Assembly: GCF_003337555.1 (NCBI RefSeq)
Contig: NZ_QPJK01000003.1
Span: 488,115 to 552,114 of the forward strand
Length of the DNA: 64,000 nucleotides
Source of the DNA: Pseudorhodoferax soli
GTDB lineage: Bacteria; Pseudomonadota; Gammaproteobacteria; Burkholderiales; Burkholderiaceae_C
Direction: 5' to 3'
Shown: positions 19,929-38,910 of the stretch, piece by piece
How positions within the stretch are numbered: the stretch's first letter is position 1
Layout: every line of letters starts with the position of its first letter
The notes under the pieces: model-generated
Seen by the model: the letters and a program-made list of their open reading frames with translations, nothing else
Told to the model about the DNA's origin: nothing
Database searches by the model: none
Made by a program: the position numbers and the translations under genes

Positions 19929-19964
19929 AACCGAATTTCGGCGTCACCACGCAAGCACTCCAAC

Positions 19965-20645
19965 ATGAAACCCTCCTCCCAGCCACGTCCTGTTGCCAAG
20001 CAGTCCGTGGAGAACCAGACGACCGACAACCTGCGCGAGTTCATCCTGTCCGGCGCGGTGCGACCCGGCACGCGCCTCACGGAAGTCGCGCTGGCCGACC
20101 AGATGGGCGTGGCCCGCGCCACGCTGCGCACCGGCCTGCAGCGCCTGGCCAGCGAAGGCATCGTGGTGCAGATACCCTACACCGGCTGGCAGGTGGCCGA
20201 CCTCAGCGCCAACGATGTGTGGGAACTCTGGACCCTGCGCGCCAGCCTGGAAAGCCTGGCCGCCAAGCTGGCCGCGCAGAGCACCGAGCCGGGCGTGCGC
20301 GAGCACATCGCCGAGGCCTACGAGAACCTGCTCGCCGCCTGCCGGCGCGGCAACATGAAGAAGATCGGCGACTGCGACTTTGCCCTGCACCGCGCGATCG
20401 TGGAGTCGGCAGGCCACTCCCGGTTGGAACGCCAGTACCAGCTGGTTGAGCAGCAGGTGCGGCTGTACATCGTCACCAGCAACAACGTGGCCGAAGGCCC
20501 GGACGACATCGTGCAGCAGCACCGGCCGATGGCGGAGGCGCTGCTGGCAGGCGATGCCGAGCGCGCCGCGCACGAGGCCTGGCAGCACAGCGAAAGCGAA
20601 GGCAAGCGCCTGCTCGACTGGCTGCGGCGCAAGTCCACGGCCTGA
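19965..20645 (+). CDS. GntR family regulator (FCD/FadR subfamily)
   Basis: 226 residues. The winged helix is recognisable in NLREFILSGAVRPGTRLTEVALADQMGVARATLRTGLQRLASEGIV, though the usual S-R-T-P-V-R-E recognition helix is A-R-A-T-L-R-T. A helical FCD domain with metal/ligand-binding histidine pattern follows (DCDFALHRAIVESAGHS). FadR-type regulators usually repress sugar-acid or carboxylic-acid catabolism and release DNA on binding substrate. The matching palindromes at both ends of the cluster identify the likely regulon. The aldolase gene begins 153 bases downstream. Confidence 0.9.
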   Translation: MKPSSQPRPVAKQSVENQTTDNLREFILSGAVRPGTRLTEVALADQMGVARATLRTGLQRLASEGIVVQIPYTGWQVADLSANDVWELWTLRASLESLAAKLAAQSTEPGVREHIAEAYENLLAACRRGNMKKIGDCDFALHRAIVESAGHSRLERQYQLVEQQVRLYIVTSNNVAEGPDDIVQQHRPMAEALLAGDAERAAHEAWQHSESEGKRLLDWLRRKSTA

Positions 20646-20798
20646 AGCGGCGCCGCAGGCTGCGCGGACTGCGGTGCCGGCCGGCCTGGCCGGCGCAAGC
20701 TGCGCAAACGCACACCATCCAACAACTGCTTGCGCACGGGTGCAGCCAGCCCGCCGGGCCGGCCGCGCCTGTACGCTCCCCAACCCGTGAGATCCCCC

Positions 20799-21518
20799 AT
20801 GAGTTCCGACGACTTCGACAATCCCACCGTCACCGCCCTGCGCACCGATCTGGCACTGGCCCTGCGCGCTGCCGCGCACCACGGATTGGGAGAAGGTGTG
20901 TGCAACCATTTCAGCGTGGAGGTGCCCGACGGCAGCGGCCGCTTCCTGCTGAACCCGCGCGGGCTGCTCTGGTCGGAGGTGCAGGCCGACGATGTGGTGT
21001 TGATCGACGCCCATGGCGAGCGCCTGGCTGGGCGACACGCGGTGGAGCCCACCGCCATGTTCATCCACGCCGCAATCCATCGCCTGTGCGGCCACCGCGT
21101 GGTGCTGCATTCGCACATGCCCTACGCGACTGCACTGGCTCTGACGACGGATGGCGCGCTGGACACCTGCCTGTCGCAGAACGCCATGCGCTACCACGGC
21201 CGGGTGGCGGTCGACCACCGCTACAACGGCCTGGCGCTCGACGCGGCCGAGGGCGAACGCATCGCCGATGCCATGCAGGGCGCGGACGTGGCCTTCCTCG
21301 CCAACCACGGCGTGGTGGTCTGCGGCGCGCGCATCGACCACGCCTACGACGACCTCTACTATCTGGAGCGCGCCTGCATGGCCCAGGTGCTGGCCCAGTC
21401 CAGCGGCCGGCCGCTGCGCAGCGCCGACCCGGCGCTGGCAGCGCGCGTCTGCGCGCAGACACTGGGCGAGAGACTGCAGTCCGAACTGTTCTTCGAGGCG
21501 CTGCGGCGCCAGCTGTGA
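20799..21518 (+). CDS. Class II aldolase/adducin family protein
   Basis: 239 residues. The zinc-binding pair H-x-H is in VLHSHMPYATAL, the third histidine in FLANHGVVVCG, and the glutamate-containing EPTAMFIHAAIH helix precedes them, as in fuculose-phosphate aldolase and related decarboxylases/dehydratases. The family cleaves or decarboxylates phosphorylated or free sugar acids. In this cluster it is probably the carbon-carbon-breaking step for whatever the ABC importer takes in, and the HAD protein may act as its phosphatase; that is inference. Confidence 0.85.
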   Translation: MSSDDFDNPTVTALRTDLALALRAAAHHGLGEGVCNHFSVEVPDGSGRFLLNPRGLLWSEVQADDVVLIDAHGERLAGRHAVEPTAMFIHAAIHRLCGHRVVLHSHMPYATALALTTDGALDTCLSQNAMRYHGRVAVDHRYNGLALDAAEGERIADAMQGADVAFLANHGVVVCGARIDHAYDDLYYLERACMAQVLAQSSGRPLRSADPALAARVCAQTLGERLQSELFFEALRRQL

Positions 21519-21666
21519 GGCCCGCATAGAACGGGCCTGGCCACGGCGGTCCAGTGCAAGGCATTCAGTTTGCCCGGGTATGCACCGCCCGAAATAGTCG
21601 CTTCCGACGATGCCGCCTCCCGGGAGCGGTCACTACCGTGGCCGCTCCAACAACGAAGGAGACGAC

Positions 21667-29121: not shown

Positions 29122-29199
29122 CGGGCGCAGCAGCGGCTGCGCCCGCGGCGAAGGGAACTGCCGGGGCCCGCGGCCGCACGCGTGCCGGACAATGGCGCG

Positions 29200-29706
29200 A
29201 TGACCGACATTCCCGACGATGCACCTCACGGCGAAGCTGCCGACACTGCCATCCAGGAGCCCCGCCTGTGGCGCGATGAACGCTGGACGGCCCGCGTGAT
29301 CAAGAACGAGGACGACGACGGCTGGGCCGTGTCGATGACGTTGCACGGCGAATCCGAACCCGCACTGACAGGCCCCTGGACCATGGGCCGCGACAAGAAG
29401 AACCCCAAGCCGCTGGACGCACCCGCCTTCCACACGCTGGTGAAGACCGCCAATGAAGTGCTGCGCCGGCACGAGCAGCAACTGCATGCGCGGCTGCACA
29501 AGGAGGTCAGCGTGGGCGCAGGCTCCGAGCGCATCCGCGTCGCCTTGACCATCGTGCCGGACGAGGAGTACCCCTATGCGGTGCTCACGGCGCAGGACGA
29601 AGCGGGCGAGACGCTGGGCCAGGCCCGCGTGGCGGCCGATTTCAAGCTCAACACGGACAAGGCGCAGGCCTGGATCGACAGCGGCTACACCGCGCGCATG
29701 CGCTGA
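29200..29706 (+). CDS. Conserved hypothetical protein, acidic
   Basis: 168 residues from the ATG at 29200; an ATG at 29182 is also in frame. No signal peptide or membrane segment. The sequence is rich in Trp and charged residues (RLWRDERWTARVIKNEDDDG, GPWTMGRDKKNPKPLD) with alternating strands, and reads as a soluble, well-conserved cytoplasmic protein rather than a chance frame. I do not recognise a named domain. It converges with the MFS gene, with 16 bases between stops. Confidence 0.7.
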   Translation: MTDIPDDAPHGEAADTAIQEPRLWRDERWTARVIKNEDDDGWAVSMTLHGESEPALTGPWTMGRDKKNPKPLDAPAFHTLVKTANEVLRRHEQQLHARLHKEVSVGAGSERIRVALTIVPDEEYPYAVLTAQDEAGETLGQARVAADFKLNTDKAQAWIDSGYTARMR

Positions 29707-29722
29707 GCGGGCACACCGGGCT

Positions 29723-30922
29723 TCAGCGGCGCAGCTCGCGCGCCAGCCGGCCCAGTGCGAGGCAGGCGGCCAGGCCCAGCCCGGCCGACAGCCACAGCGC
29801 GCCCGCACCCAGCCGCTGCACCGCCAGCCCGAAGAGGAAGGGCGCGCCGGCCTGCACGATGCGGGCCGGCACCATCAGCAGGCCCTGCCGCTCGCCATAG
29901 CCCCTGGCGCCGAACAGCAGCAGCGGCAGCGTTCCGATGGCGATGGTCAGGATGCCGTTGCCCAGCCCATGCAGTACCGCGAAGGCCGCCGCCGCGGGGC
30001 TGCCGATGAGCACGATGCACAGCACGCCCAGCGGATGGCCGAGCGTGGCCAGGCGCGCCGACAGCAGCGGATGCGCCCGGGCCAGGAATGCGAATTCGAT
30101 CAGACGCCCAGCGACCTGCGCCGGCCCCACCAGCGCGGCCGTGCCGACCGCTGCCGCCATGCCGGCCCCCGCGGCCAGCAGCAGTTGCGGCAGATGCGCC
30201 GCCATGGCCGTGCTGATGAACCAGGTCACGGCGAACACGAAGGCCAGCAGCAGGGCCGCAGCGCGTTGCTGCGGCGGGGCCAGGGCGGCCGGTGGGCTGG
30301 CCGGGCTTGCGGCCTCTGCAGGGGCGGCAGGCGCGCGCGCAGCCGCAGGCAGCATGGCATTGAGCGGCAGGCCCACCAGCAGGTGCAGGCCTGCCCACAC
30401 CAGGCAGGCACCACGCCAGCCCAGGCTGCTTTCCAGCCAGGCCGTGAGCGGCCAGCCCACGGTGCTGGCGAAGCCGGCGAACAAGGTGATCCCCGTGATC
30501 GTGCGCCTGGCCTGCGCTCCATGCAGCCGCACCGCGGTGGCGAACGCGGCTTCGTAGAGGCCGCTGCCCATCGCCAGGCCCATCACGGCCCAGGCCCCGA
30601 ACACCTGCAGTGGCTGCTGCGCGAGGCCCAGGGCCCCCAGCCCCGCGGCGAACACCAGGTTGCTGGCCACGAGCACCGGCCGGCCGCCGTGCCGGTCGAT
30701 CAGCCGGCCTGCGAACGGCCCCGTGGCCGCAGCCACCAGCAAGGCCACCGAGAACGCACCGAACACGGTGGCGCGCGACATGCCCAGGTCCTGGCCGATG
30801 GCACCCGCAAGAATGGCCGGCAGGTAGTACGACGAGGCCCAGGCCAGCGTCTGCGCCAGGCCCAGCAGCACCGTCGTCGTGCGCGTGCCCTGCAGCCTTG
30901 CGCCGGCGTTCAGTTGCGGCAC
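29723..30922 (-). CDS. MFS transporter
   Basis: 399 residues from a GTG at 30922, with about twelve hydrophobic helices. The second loop GRLIDRHGGRPVLV is the MFS motif A, and the preceding YYLPAILAGAIGQDLGMSRATVFGAFS is typical of the monocarboxylate/oxalate-like subgroup. No ATG or clear ribosome site is available near the start, and the frame stays open up to 31138 through the iteron region, so the start is uncertain. Substrate unknown. Confidence 0.8.
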   Translation of the reverse strand: MPQLNAGARLQGTRTTTVLLGLAQTLAWASSYYLPAILAGAIGQDLGMSRATVFGAFSVALLVAAATGPFAGRLIDRHGGRPVLVASNLVFAAGLGALGLAQQPLQVFGAWAVMGLAMGSGLYEAAFATAVRLHGAQARRTITGITLFAGFASTVGWPLTAWLESSLGWRGACLVWAGLHLLVGLPLNAMLPAAARAPAAPAEAASPASPPAALAPPQQRAAALLLAFVFAVTWFISTAMAAHLPQLLLAAGAGMAAAVGTAALVGPAQVAGRLIEFAFLARAHPLLSARLATLGHPLGVLCIVLIGSPAAAAFAVLHGLGNGILTIAIGTLPLLLFGARGYGERQGLLMVPARIVQAGAPFLFGLAVQRLGAGALWLSAGLGLAACLALGRLARELRR

Positions 30923-31054
30923 CGCTGCACCGGCGTGGAGTGCACGCGCTTTCCGATGGGCTGTCTCATGCAGCCATGGTAGGGGCTGCCATGCCGCGGG
31001 CCGCAGCTGTCTCAAACCACGAATCGCCGCATGCACGGCTGGAGCAACCCATCG

Positions 31055-31291
31055 TCGTGGTTTGACGCACGCTGCCGCGGAACGCTTCTCGTGGCATGAC
31101 GCACGCGTTGGCGACAAGCCCATCGTGGTTTGAGGCACGGTACCGACGCGCCTCTGTCGGGGTTTGAATCACGCCGAGGCACAGGCCGCCCATCGGGACA
31201 TGAATCAGCCCGTGTCGTGGGATGACGCCGGCCGCATCGCGGGATGAAGCCGCTGCACTCGTCTGATGAGGCGCCACCACTCGGCGAATGA
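31055..31291 (-). repeat. Left iteron array, nine direct repeats with 34- then 22-bp spacing
   Basis: Eleven-base sites of form TCGnGnnnTGA start at 31055, 31089, 31123, 31157, 31193, 31215, 31237, 31259 and 31281. The first four lie 34 bases apart, one step is 36, then four steps are exactly 22. The best copies (31055, 31123) are TCGTGGTTTGA; the right-hand ones drift in the middle (TCGTGGGATGA, TCGCGGGATGA, TCGTCTGATGA, TCGGCGAATGA). Spacings close to 2 and 3 helical turns put every site on one DNA face, as in RK2 oriV iterons bound by TrfA. Confidence 0.85.
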
Positions 31292-31352
31292 ATCGGAGGG
31301 GTTTCGAAAAGTTCCATGCAGATCAACGACTTGCATGGACATTGGCGCCCCA

Positions 31353-31406
31353 CTAATCACTCTCTAATCCGTCTCTAATCCTTGTTGATTAATCAAATTC
31401 TTAATC
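31353..31406. other. AT-rich segment with TAATC repeats, candidate unwinding element
   Basis: In otherwise GC-rich DNA this stretch is mainly A and T. TAATC occurs at 31354, 31365, 31376, 31390 and 31402, the first three exactly 11 bases apart (CTAATC). It lies between the two iteron groups, where an iteron origin has its AT-rich 13-mer unwinding region. Confidence 0.65.
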
Positions 31407-31525
31407 AGTGAACGCAGCCGCCGTCGATTCCGGCTTGCCGGAATCGATGGCGGAAGGGGTCCGGGGCTGGCCCCGGGTGGTTCCTGGCGCATGGGCCCGC
31501 GCGACCGGGTGCGCAAGAAGCTGTC

Positions 31526-31754
31526 TCAAACCACGAATCCCGCTGGTCGCCGCATCGGTGTCAAACCACGACAAACAGGCCTGCTTCAAACCACGATCCA
31601 GCGGGTCTGCAGGCCTGCAACGCCCCGATCATTGCCTCAAACGACGACAGATGCCGTTTCCAGGGCGCTGCACACGCTGGCCAGCCAACCCGCCGGCTGC
31701 ATCAAGGCACGAACAGCTTGATTCAAACCACGAGACTCCTGCGTCAAGCGACGA
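31526..31754 (+). repeat. Right iteron group, opposite orientation
   Basis: Forward-type sites TCAAACCACGA occur at 31526, 31561, 31586 and 31723, with variants TCAAACGACGA (31637), TCAAGGCACGA (31702) and TCAAGCGACGA (31744). The last three are 21 bases apart and end 26 bases before the initiator start codon, so they probably cover its promoter and allow autorepression as well as origin control. Confidence 0.8.
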
Positions 31755-31780
31755 CAGGCGGCTGATATCGTCGCGGCCCG

Positions 31781-32623
31781 ATGACCGACCTCGCCACCCT
31801 TCCCAAGTCCAAACGCAAGTCCCACGGCATGCTGCTCGCCGGGCCCACCCAGCTGCCGCTGTGGGGCGAACGCGTGCGTGGCGCGCCCAACGCGCTGGCC
31901 CGCTCGGCCCTGTTCACCTGCGCCGACAAGCGCAAGCCGCGCCGCAGCTTCGACCGCCAGGTCATCGTCTCCGTGGCCGGCCAGGAGATCCGCTACACCG
32001 GCAAGGAACTGCGCCAGGACGACCTGACCGTGTGGCTGCAGGTCGTCCACCTGGCCCGCATGCAGCCCATCGGCGACCAGGTGGAGGTGTCTGCGAGTTC
32101 GCTCGGCGTGGCCATCGGCTGGGGCAACAGCGGCGACACCTACAAGCGCCTGCGCGACTCCATCGCCCGCATGCGAGAAGGCTCCGTCTGGGTCGACAAG
32201 CCCAATGGCAAGGGCTTCTCGGGCAACCTGATCATGCGGCTGGAGTGGTCCGATGCAGGCTCCAAGTCGCGCGAGAAGTGGCGGCTCTACCTCGACCCCA
32301 ACATCCTGGAGTTGTTCCAGCCCGATGCCTTCACCTTGCTCAATGGCGAAGAACGCCTGGGCCTGACGCCGCTGGCGCAGTGGATCTACGGCTTCTTCAG
32401 CACGCACGAGACGCCGTTTCCGTACAAGGTCGAGACCCTGTTCGGCCTCAGCGGCTCGACGGCCACCTGCCTGTCGGGCTTTCGCCGCAACCTGCTGGAG
32501 GCGCTGGACGTGCTCAAGGAACGCCGGCTGATCTCCGACTTCATCTACGACACCAAGACCAAAACTGTGCACGTGCTGCGCCGCCCGCACATGCCGGTGG
32601 TCGAAGCCCCGCTCGCGGCCTGA
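31781..32623 (+). CDS. trfA: TrfA-family plasmid replication initiator protein
   Basis: 280 residues. Blocks shared with RK2 TrfA are visible: LPLWGERVRGAPNALARSALF, CADKRKPRRSF, the beta-strand QEIRYTGKELRQDDLTVWLQ, VHLARMQP, the LAQWIYGFFSTHETPFPYKVE segment and LSGSTATCLSGFRRNLLEAL, covering both winged-helix halves. TrfA binds iterons, opens the AT-rich region and loads the host helicase. The ATG at 31781 is the first in frame. Iterons in both orientations surround the gene. It is complete and shows no frameshift. No parAB, mobilisation or integrase gene is within 10 kb on either side, and surrounding genes look chromosomal, so it may be a domesticated or chromid-type origin. Confidence 0.9.
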   Translation: MTDLATLPKSKRKSHGMLLAGPTQLPLWGERVRGAPNALARSALFTCADKRKPRRSFDRQVIVSVAGQEIRYTGKELRQDDLTVWLQVVHLARMQPIGDQVEVSASSLGVAIGWGNSGDTYKRLRDSIARMREGSVWVDKPNGKGFSGNLIMRLEWSDAGSKSREKWRLYLDPNILELFQPDAFTLLNGEERLGLTPLAQWIYGFFSTHETPFPYKVETLFGLSGSTATCLSGFRRNLLEALDVLKERRLISDFIYDTKTKTVHVLRRPHMPVVEAPLAA

Positions 32624-32635
32624 GCCGCCTCTGCT

Positions 32636-32665
32636 TCAAACCACGAGGCGGCAGTCGTGGTTTGA
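32636..32665. repeat. Inverted iteron pair downstream of trfA
   Basis: TCAAACCACGA (32636-32646) and TCGTGGTTTGA (32655-32665) are exact inverted copies eight bases apart, starting 13 bases after the trfA stop. They could bind the initiator as a pair, or fold as a hairpin ending both convergent transcripts. A weaker copy, TCGGCGTTTGA, lies at 32705-32715. Confidence 0.75.
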
Positions 32666-32770
32666 GGCACCGCCCTCGGAAACGTCCCCCAGACCCTCCA
32701 ACATTCGGCGTTTGAGGCAGGCACAGCGCGCCGCCCTCGTCCTGCCCTTGCCCGCCCTCTTCCGCGCTTT

Positions 32771-36738: not shown

Positions 36739-38910
36739 GTGGCGCAACCAGAGCACGTGCCGGTCCCAGCGGATTCCCTTTCCATCGAGAACCAGTGGCT
36801 GCGGCGGCCCAGGCTGCGTCCGGGTGCCGGGCTGCTGCGCGGCGTGCTGGGCTCGCTGCTGGTGCATGCGCTGGTGCTGAGCCTGACCTTCGGCAGCGCG
36901 GAGTACGGCCTGCCGGGCCTGGTCTTTCCGTGGCAGGAACGGCGCGGTGCGCTGCCGGAACTGCGCGTGGTGCTGCAAGCAGAGGCCCCGGCCGCCGCCG
37001 CACCCGCAGCGCAGACGCCGCCGGCGCCCGCAACGGCAGCGGCCCCGGCACCTGCTGTCGTGGCACCCGTCAGGGTTCCCGCGCCTCAACCTCTACCTGC
37101 GCCGACACCTGCGCCAGCGCCGAGCCCGAAGCCTGCCGTGCTGGCCATGCCATCCGCCGACGCGGGCACACCCGCCGCCGACACCGCCGAGCAGGACGCC
37201 GCACGGGCGGCCCTGGCACAGCGAGAGGCAGACCGTGAAGCCGCTGCCCGGCAGGCCGAGGAGCAGCAGCAGGCCGAGCAACGCGCACAGGCCGTGCAGC
37301 AAGCCGCTCGGGACGCGGCACGCGCCCGGGCCGCGCAGGCCGAAGCGGCCCGCATCGAGGCTGAACGCCAGGCCATCCTGCAGGCCGAACAGGCGCAGCG
37401 CGATGCCGCACAACAGCAGCCATCGCAGGCCCAGGCCGCCGAGCGCGAGGTCGAACGCCAGCAAGTCCTGCAGCGCGAGGCCCTGCATGCGCAAGCCGAA
37501 CGGGAAGAGGCAGCACAGCAGGACATGGCGCGCCAGCAGGCGGCGCAGGCCGAGGCTGCGCGGCTGGCGCTGGAGCGCCGCGAGGCCGCCGCGGACGCTG
37601 CGGCACAGGAACAGGCGGCGCGCCAGGAGGCCGCTCGCAGGGCAGCCGTCCGCGCCGAAGCTGAACGGCAAGCGCAGGTGCAGGCGCAGGTGCAGGTGCA
37701 ACAGGCGGCGGCGCAACAGGAAGCCGAGCGCACCGAAGCCTTGCGCCGCGAGGCCACACAGCAGGAGGCAGCCCAACGCGTCGCCCGCGAAGAAGCCGTG
37801 CGCGCCGAAGCCGCCGAGCGCGAGGCCCGGCTGCAGGAAGCAACGCGCCAGGCCGCGGCACGGCAGGAAGAGGCTGCGCGGCGGGATGCCGCCCGGCAAG
37901 AGGCGGAACGCCAGGCCGCGCAGCGGCAGGAGGCAGCACGCCAGCTAGCGGCCAGCGAAGAAGCTGCGCTCGCCGAAGCGGCCAGGCGCGAGGCCGAGCG
38001 CCAGGAAGCAAGGCGCCAAGCCGCGGCACGCCAGGAAGAGACTGCGCGCCAGGAAGAGGCCGCACGTCAGGAAGAGGCTGCACGCCAGGAAGAGGCTGCA
38101 CGCCGGGAGGCCGCCCGGCAGGACGCGGAACGCCAGGCCGCTGCGCAACAGGAGACCGCGCGCCGCGAGGCCGCCCAGGCCGCAGCAGCCCGCCAGGAGG
38201 CTGAGCGGCAACAAGCTGCGCAAGCCGCAGCCGCACGGGAGGCGGCCGACCGCCAGGCCGCAGCCCAGGCACAAGCCCAAGCGGAAGCCGCCCAGCGGGC
38301 CGCAGCCCAGCAGGCCGCGGAGCAGGACAGCGCCCGGCGCGCCACAGCCCAGGACGCGGCTGCACCGCAGGCTGCAGAGCAGCGCCCGGCGGCCGCCCTG
38401 GCCGAGGCCGCCAAACGCGAGGCCGCCCGCGCCTACGAGGCGCAGCGCGAAGAGCGGCTGCGTGCGATCGGCCGGCAGTTGAACGCCGAGGCCGACCAGC
38501 GTGCCGCCGCCGAAGCCGCGGCGCGCGCGGCGCCCGACCTGCCCTCGTCGTGGAGCAATGCCAGGCGCGGCCGCAACCTCGCGCGCGGCGATCCGAACGA
38601 GGAGTTGCGCCTGTACGGCGACGCCTGGAGCCGCAAGATCGAACTCAACATGACGATCGAGCCGGTGCGTGAACTGCTCCGACAGCCGCACCAGCCACCC
38701 GTCGTGACGGTCGCCGTGCGCCGCGACGGCTCGGTCGAATCGATCACCTTCGTGCGCTCCAGCGGCGTTGCGGCCATCGACGATGCGGTGCGCGGCATCG
38801 TGCAGGGCCAGGCCAACTACCCGGCGTTTCCGCCGCGGCTGGCGCGCGACTTCGATGTGGTGGAGATCCGCCGCACCTGGCACTTCGACATCGCGATCCG
38901 GCTGTACTAG
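36739..38910 (+). CDS. TonB-like energy-transducer with very long Ala/Glu/Arg/Gln coiled coil
   Basis: 723 residues from a GTG. A single membrane helix (31-52) is followed by an extracytoplasmic Pro/Ala-rich stretch (80-135), then about 430 residues composed almost only of A, E, R and Q (155-585), then a TonB C-terminal domain (VTVAVRRDGSVESITFVRSSGVAAIDDAV... WHFDIAIRLY). The central part should form a long charged helix spanning the periplasm; near 38045-38110 the DNA has 18-base tandem repeats encoding ARQEEA. Ordinary TonB is about 240 residues. No ExbBD is adjacent. It may power a receptor or bridge the envelope; the partner is unknown. Confidence 0.85.
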   Translation: MAQPEHVPVPADSLSIENQWLRRPRLRPGAGLLRGVLGSLLVHALVLSLTFGSAEYGLPGLVFPWQERRGALPELRVVLQAEAPAAAAPAAQTPPAPATAAAPAPAVVAPVRVPAPQPLPAPTPAPAPSPKPAVLAMPSADAGTPAADTAEQDAARAALAQREADREAAARQAEEQQQAEQRAQAVQQAARDAARARAAQAEAARIEAERQAILQAEQAQRDAAQQQPSQAQAAEREVERQQVLQREALHAQAEREEAAQQDMARQQAAQAEAARLALERREAAADAAAQEQAARQEAARRAAVRAEAERQAQVQAQVQVQQAAAQQEAERTEALRREATQQEAAQRVAREEAVRAEAAEREARLQEATRQAAARQEEAARRDAARQEAERQAAQRQEAARQLAASEEAALAEAARREAERQEARRQAAARQEETARQEEAARQEEAARQEEAARREAARQDAERQAAAQQETARREAAQAAAARQEAERQQAAQAAAAREAADRQAAAQAQAQAEAAQRAAAQQAAEQDSARRATAQDAAAPQAAEQRPAAALAEAAKREAARAYEAQREERLRAIGRQLNAEADQRAAAEAAARAAPDLPSSWSNARRGRNLARGDPNEELRLYGDAWSRKIELNMTIEPVRELLRQPHQPPVVTVAVRRDGSVESITFVRSSGVAAIDDAVRGIVQGQANYPAFPPRLARDFDVVEIRRTWHFDIAIRLY

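Follow-up and report, generated by a model that had tools for sequence, protein, structure and literature searches.

A replication module of about 1.7 kb, composed of the initiator gene trfA, 20 iteron-like sites, an AT-rich element and two hairpins, was found in a 64,000-nucleotide stretch of Pseudorhodoferax soli DNA (the window, G000:C3:488115-552114; coordinates without a contig prefix are window positions). The genome, G000, comprises 8.16 Mb in 30 contigs, and the module lies on contig C3 of 672,710 bp. We read it as a TrfA/iteron plasmid replicon that was fixed in the primary chromosome of an ancestor of at least five Pseudorhodoferax species and was kept as a working conditional origin, a reading to which we give a probability of roughly 57%. 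Plasmid descent and domestication are well supported by the same place of the module in five of the six Pseudorhodoferax genomes compared (G000 to G005), by a ratio of nonsynonymous to synonymous change (dN/dS) of 0.007 for trfA, and by iterons and geometry as in two Burkholderia plasmids. Judged from its sequence, the module is most likely able to initiate replication, because the AT-rich repeats and the exact distance from the array are kept, which is what one expects from an origin rather than a decoy. The basis of this reading is the parts of the module and their order, their conservation, a location near dif on a contig that also holds core genes, a design found in two plasmids, and no excess of iteron-like sites elsewhere in the genome.

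A preliminary description of this DNA had placed a TrfA initiator, ordered iterons in two orientations, an AT-rich segment and a downstream inverted pair within 30961-32715. All four parts were recovered, and only the limits moved, the outermost sites being at 31008 (slightly inside) and 32719 (slightly outside). The parts are listed below with the basis of each call.

31008-31022, forward strand: outermost upstream iteron with exact core (motif scans)
31055-31295, reverse strand: origin array of nine iteron-like sites (weight-matrix scan and looser scan)
31353-31405, no strand: AT-rich putative DNA unwinding element (up to 62% AT over 60 bases)
31418-31453 and 31461-31476, no strand: two hairpins (fold stability against shuffles)
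31522-31754, forward strand: promoter-side array of seven iteron-like sites (weight-matrix scan; present in all five species)
31781-32623, forward strand: trfA, replication initiator, 280 amino acids (PF07042 profile match)
32632-32669, no strand: inverted iteron pair 3' of trfA, 15-bp stem and 8-nt loop (motif and inverted-repeat search)
32705-32719, reverse strand: last downstream iteron-like site, the third site beyond trfA (weight-matrix scan)

The iteron 11-mer, TCAAACCACGA/TCGTGGTTTGA, occurs nine times in the whole genome, and all nine copies are located within 31012-32665; the reversed control gave one copy. Eighteen iteron-like sites were detected by a weight-matrix scan of the window. 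Two more (31259 and 31281, with four mismatches each), the weakest of the 20, were added by a looser scan and accepted on phase, and an overlapping hit with five mismatches at 31210 was discarded. The sites of the origin array start at 31055, 31089, 31123, 31157, 31193, 31215, 31237, 31259 and 31281, showing a spacing of 34, 34, 34, 36, 22, 22, 22 and 22 bp; the outer sites are closer to the core sequence and the array degenerates toward the AT-rich element. Throughout, five-species comparisons are between G000, G001, G002, G003 and G005. The other four species show the origin array in the same order and at near-identical spacing, although some of its weakest sites fall under the scan threshold there. 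Some weak sites retain a deviation from the core that is particular to them; TCGTGGCATGA, for instance, occupies the second array position in each of the five species. An exact core stands at about the position of the 31008 site in four of the five species, and G005 has a one-mismatch site further out. The promoter-side sites start at 31522, 31557, 31582, 31633, 31698, 31719 and 31740; the last three, 21 bp apart and reaching the trfA start, are likely the trfA operator. The core of the inverted pair is kept in the five species except for one base in G002.

Iteron columns are invariant in the five-species alignment at 186 of 240 positions (78%), against 61 of 300 (20%) for spacer columns. This contrast of 0.57 was matched by none of 539 shifts of the iteron mask, one-base shifts giving 0.55 and shifts of at least 8 bases no more than 0.16; the mask follows resemblance to the core in G000, and this choice helps the contrast to some degree. 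Conservation of the weak sites (113 of 150 columns invariant) is almost as high as that of the exact-core sites (73 of 90). The conserved weak iterons bear on whether iteron plasmids possess weak initiator sites at all, a point that a 2016 review leaves as a question mark in its Table 1 (PMC4980987).

In the AT-rich element, TAAT is repeated at 31354, 31365 and 31376 with a period of 11 bp, and again at 31390 and 31402. The first TAAT repeat is 73 bp from the last iteron of the origin array, and 77% of columns 31350-31405 are invariant across the five species. The segment with the two hairpins (31405-31485) folds with a z of −4.6, equal stability being reached in none of 200 shuffles. The hairpin region itself (31411-31477), between the AT-rich element and the promoter-side iterons, has 93% of its columns invariant in the five species.

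The same design was found in two Burkholderia plasmids of PLSDB rep_cluster_1449, pTY921B of B. cenocepacia and unnamed2 of B. glumae 336gr-1, of which the TrfA proteins are 48 and 47% identical, respectively, to that of the module. Like the module, both plasmids carry the same 11-bp iteron core in two-orientation arrays around an AT-rich element. On the matching strand, strong sites are followed by mostly degenerate 21-22-bp sites and then by TAAT repeats at 10-11 bp, and the gap between iterons and TAAT repeats is 74 bp in one plasmid and 74 bp in the other, as compared with 73 bp in the module. The gradient from strong to weak is imperfect in the B. glumae plasmid, in which the iteron closest to the repeats has the exact core sequence. 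The array of this geometry is located on the trfA side in the plasmids but on the far side in the module, the origin core thus being inverted relative to trfA. Outer sites with a regular 34-bp phase are present in the module and not in the two plasmids, and no inverted repeat of at least 10 bp was detected in the origin stretches of the latter.

The initiator matches PF07042 with E 3e-30 and 105.7 bits (cut-off 22), residues 10-253 covering positions 25-270 of the 282 in the profile, and it is the sole PF07042 match in the genome. No match to PDB sequences was found at E 0.001. The AlphaFold model, considered with regard to the twin winged-helix fold of Rep proteins and built from five near-identical sequences, is poor, with a mean predicted local distance difference test score of 33.8. 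The sequence QLPLW at residues 24-28 fits a likely clamp-binding motif. Such a motif is present in RK2 TrfA (PMC4980987). A viral or phage source of the module was considered and rejected: TrfA gave no match at 1e-5 in a phage collection, and the two viral contigs that hold the paired-iteron pattern were treated as chance because no obvious TrfA was seen by eye in the lists of open reading frames (ORFs) near the matches, where no profile search was run.

TrfA is 98-100% identical among the five genomes that carry the module, G000 included. Its constraint was ranked in one species pair, C3 of G000 against contig C23 of G003, with basic gene calling and a plain tally of substitutions. C3 has 524 called genes, 458 of which encode at least 120 amino acids, and 196 of those start beyond 400 kb; 147 C3 genes were matched (>70% coverage, >60% identity), and 144 remained for ranking after three failed the filter on place (start beyond 400 kb, collinear offset). 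TrfA is first of the 144 collinear proteins in identity (99.6%; DnaK, 99.1%) and its gene has the lowest dN/dS (0.007), the values being 0.146 for the median, 0.039 for dnaK and 0.193 for the adjacent sigma-54 regulator. Over all ten pairs of the five species, dN/dS of trfA ranges from 0.007 to 0.077. At 0.237, the synonymous divergence (dS) of trfA is unremarkable (median 0.224, rank 84 of 144), indicating that selection keeps TrfA near-identical and ruling out recent transfer as the cause. As judged from these substitutions, TrfA is constrained far more strongly than its neighbours.

Such conservation could also be accounted for by a device for plasmid exclusion, in which chromosomal iterons together with TrfA titrate, or pair with, incoming plasmids of the same iteron, the replication of the module itself being unimportant. 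Cross-incompatibility is plausible because the two Burkholderia plasmids use the same 11-bp core, and the iteron-like sites are conserved, as this explanation would have them. A decoy, however, should need neither AT-rich repeats, nor a 73-bp distance, nor hairpins, nor a TrfA with dN/dS of 0.007, all of which are kept. The plasmid relatives of this TrfA are about 44-48% identical at best, among the matches listed, and the paired-iteron pattern was found in only 6 of 399 genomes of the family, five of them of this genus and one (G057) beside another TrfA match. We therefore regard exclusion as an unlikely purpose of the module.

A second possibility is that TrfA was recruited to a new task, in transcription regulation or as a structural protein, the origin having ceased to fire. 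A plasmid-encoded TrfA is able to control host genes in Pseudomonas aeruginosa (PMC12691604), and a functional second origin is silenced in Vibrio cholerae NSCV2 (PMC6284228). Against this, 11 of the 12 genome sites with at most one mismatch fall inside the module, and the sites with at most two mismatches outside it number 33 in the whole genome, as compared with 38 for the reversed control. As iteron-like sites elsewhere are at chance level, no TrfA regulon of such sites is visible, and the constraint on TrfA is therefore best explained by its work at the module. The adjoining genes, including that of a major facilitator superfamily (MFS) transporter and that of the sigma-54 regulator, change between species, so there is no conserved neighbour to regulate. 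Co-option is thus quite unlikely.

The nature of the replicon was judged from the other genes of C3, which carries the genes for LigA, GrpE, DnaK, DnaJ and acetolactate synthase (ilvIH) together with five assigned tRNAs. DnaA is encoded on a different contig, C10, as is the sole strong ParB (119 bits). For dif, the E. coli sequence was used as query; seven sites of C3 tied at 17 of 28 positions, and one was picked by eye for its half-site. The choice was supported afterwards by a single match in each of the six genus genomes (at most two mismatches, so that a more divergent copy could be missed; control, 0) and by identity at 24 of 28 positions with the published dif of Rhodoferax ferrireducens (PMC2731167). 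The dif-like site of G000, its only one, is located on C3 at about 385 kb. It is separated from trfA by 134 kb in G000, 117 kb in G002 (edge to edge), 138 kb in G005 and 196 kb in G003; in G001, trfA and the dif-like site are on separate contigs. C3 (410 to 665 kb) is collinear with G003 C23 over about 255 kb with trfA inside, one match being out of place.

That C3 is instead part of a chromid with TrfA as its origin is disfavoured and highly unlikely. In its favour, TrfA replicons usually exist outside the chromosome, the genome is assembled into 30 contigs, and of the ORFs in ten E. coli housekeeping stretches 15 had matches on C3 over more than half their length, without a ribosomal protein gene among them. 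Three further ParB_N matches above the curated Pfam cut-off (C3, C11 and C13; 32-35 bits) also point this way, but the only strong ParB shares a contig with dnaA. Ranged against a chromid are the core genes and tRNAs of C3 and the single dif-like site per genome, which in G000 is on C3. One would look for the origin of a chromid on the far side from dif, but the length of C3 by itself is 673 kb. The preliminary description had named a plasmid contig, with replication, partition or transfer genes of its own, as the finding that would count against a chromosomal origin; C3 instead has ligA, grpE-dnaK-dnaJ, ilvIH and the only dif-like site, and no Par genes among the 17 neighbours scanned. Of the three options offered there, the domesticated plasmid origin is well supported, the chromid origin is disfavoured, and the cryptic second origin is the functional reading favoured here from sequence. 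As a separate observation, C3:5363-7420, outside the window, holds an ORF of 685 amino acids with the weak ParB_N match; it reaches 63.6 bits against PRTRC ParB (cut-off 278.6) and is perhaps part of a mobile element.

Genes in the flanks (21.6-43.1 kb) were called with a simple GC-frame caller, and 17 called genes were scanned against Pfam; 14, trfA included, matched a family and three matched none. No partition, mobilisation or integrase family was found among the 17, in agreement with the preliminary description for the 10 kb on either side, a gene at 19944-21527 that just enters this zone being unscanned. The tRNA that it had noted about 28 kb away is a tRNA-Pro at 2892-2968. In G005 the module stands alone between two conserved genes, the counterparts of 29182-29706 (unknown) and 36739-38910 (TonB C-terminal domain), and the other module-bearing species have extra genes on one or both sides of it. 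The MFS gene is missing beside the module in G003 and G005, and the match to the sigma-54 regulator is missing in G005. The MFS transporter (29723-31138), nearest to the ArsK family (245 bits, cut-off 400), is beside the module in G000, G001 and G002. The ORF at 36739-38910 has a repetitive middle, where the alignments to relatives break into many overlapping pieces, and AT skew reaches 0.45 at 37-39 kb.

G004 is without the module, and the same two flanking genes enclose a different segment there, about 1.6 kb long and lacking the iteron core. In a small unrooted tree of two joined genes, G004 pairs with G005 (support 0.95), with which both a loss and an earlier split fit. A record labelled Variovorax boronicumulans DE0202 groups with Pseudorhodoferax, and may be mislabelled. 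That the module is a mini-replicon of recent insertion or continuing mobility, or the decaying remnant of an integrated plasmid, would fit its lone position in G005, as for a 1.7-kb insert, and the different gene of G004, but this is hardly credible and is largely refuted by the same place in five species, by ordinary dS with extreme dN/dS, and by the absence of an integrase among the flanking genes scanned.

Across the family, PF07042 matches were found in 37 of the 399 genomes searched. The exact 11-mer core is absent from the 20-kb stretches around the TrfA genes of two single-contig genomes (G083 and G133) and around two extra loci of G002; short stretches at the other TrfA loci of the family were scanned for the core at up to two mismatches. 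The only paired-iteron match outside the genus, G057:C24:54872-54904, is 335 bases before a TrfA match at C24:55239. The extra TrfA matches of G002, L007 (C33) and L008 (C132), are 41 and 32% identical and perhaps belong to other plasmid-type replicons. G316 has five TrfA matches on separate contigs, and a resolvase-like ORF was seen by eye near the TrfA locus of G083.

For a domesticated origin of this kind, we infer initiation, usual quiet, autorepression and a rescue role. TrfA monomers would fill the strong outer iterons first and then the weak, 22-bp-phased iterons beside the AT-rich element. Bound TrfA would melt the TAAT repeats and recruit helicase and sliding clamp, while through the iterons over the trfA start it would repress its own gene. 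Forks from oriC would copy the module in each cycle, and iteron copy control, that is, the pairing of TrfA-bound iterons, would then keep it quiet. If oriC forks arrive late or fail at the terminus, the module would be under-copied and could fire, rescuing the last-replicated part of the chromosome; its place near the terminus would allow it to sense such forks.

Several observations weigh against a working chromosomal origin. No DnaA box with fewer than two mismatches was detected in the module, the single two-mismatch match being at 31383, and in RK2 the inversion of one of four DnaA boxes abolishes replication (PMC4980987), although DnaA is not required by every plasmid, R1 being named in the same review. 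Both Burkholderia plasmids have a ParA-family gene just upstream, which the module is without, and no parAB genes were found nearby among the 17 genes scanned. Origins integrated at a distance from oriC are described as carrying a cost when replication is driven from them (PMC4287441). The closeness to dif could have arisen once by chance: the five species share one inheritance, so that it counts once, and the 200 kb on either side of dif make up about 5-6% of such a chromosome. The place of trfA on one circle with oriC is deduced from an assembly in 30 contigs. The absence of the module from G004 indicates that it is dispensable in one species. GC skew, one of the checks proposed in the preliminary description, was run on C3, G003 C23 and C10, and shows no clear inversion at the module in the two genomes (C3 and G003 C23). 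The skew is weak, and its C3 maximum (about 336 kb) falls only in the broad vicinity of the dif-like site (385 kb); because C10 shows no minimum at dnaA, it says little about firing either way.

A tentative step further, for which we would claim slightly less than even odds, is that these are chromosomes with two natural origins: oriC with DnaA, and a TrfA origin of plasmid derivation, fixed and passed on by vertical descent, that lies 117-196 kb from dif and is selected as a backup or late terminus origin of a large chromosome. Graded from strong to weak, the iterons may act like the strong and weak DnaA sites of oriC. Should the module fire, it would mean that a plasmid origin can be tamed by bacteria into a permanent additional start of replication, and Pseudorhodoferax would offer a natural system for studying how two initiators share one chromosome.

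The iteron sequence of RK2 is unlike that of the module; RK2 has four 13-mers, and its oriV is distant from trfA. The TrfA-oriV system of RK2/IncP-1 (PMC4980987) shares with the module the Pfam TrfA family, iterons, an AT-rich element with short repeats and, likely, the clamp-binding motif. It differs in being plasmid-borne with four DnaA boxes, the module being chromosomal and without a good one. A literature search, with most subscription papers outside its reach, gave among the titles and abstract openings listed no report of a chromosomal TrfA origin in Pseudorhodoferax or its relatives, which is a weak negative.

Second origins in the literature cited are described as either strain-level fusions of whole chromosomes or plasmid and phage origins in strains defective in dnaA or oriC. 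Two origins are active on the fused chromosome of V. cholerae NSCV1 (PMC6284228) and on that of natural Agrobacterium isolates (PMC12153318). A fusion of chromosome and chromid is reported in Cupriavidus, the activity of its second origin being unknown (PMC8729776). The V. cholerae strains, NSCV2 included, and Agrobacterium resemble the module in having a second origin beside the primary origin on a chromosome. In integrative suppression of E. coli, an integrated plasmid origin can likewise drive chromosome replication, but in strains defective in dnaA or oriC (PMC4287441), whereas the module is natural and conserved. In contrast to the V. cholerae and Agrobacterium cases, single strains in which whole second chromosomes were fused, the module is a par-less, plasmid-type origin of 1.7 kb at one place in five species, with an initiator more constrained than DnaK, and it differs from such fusions in kind of evidence and in age.

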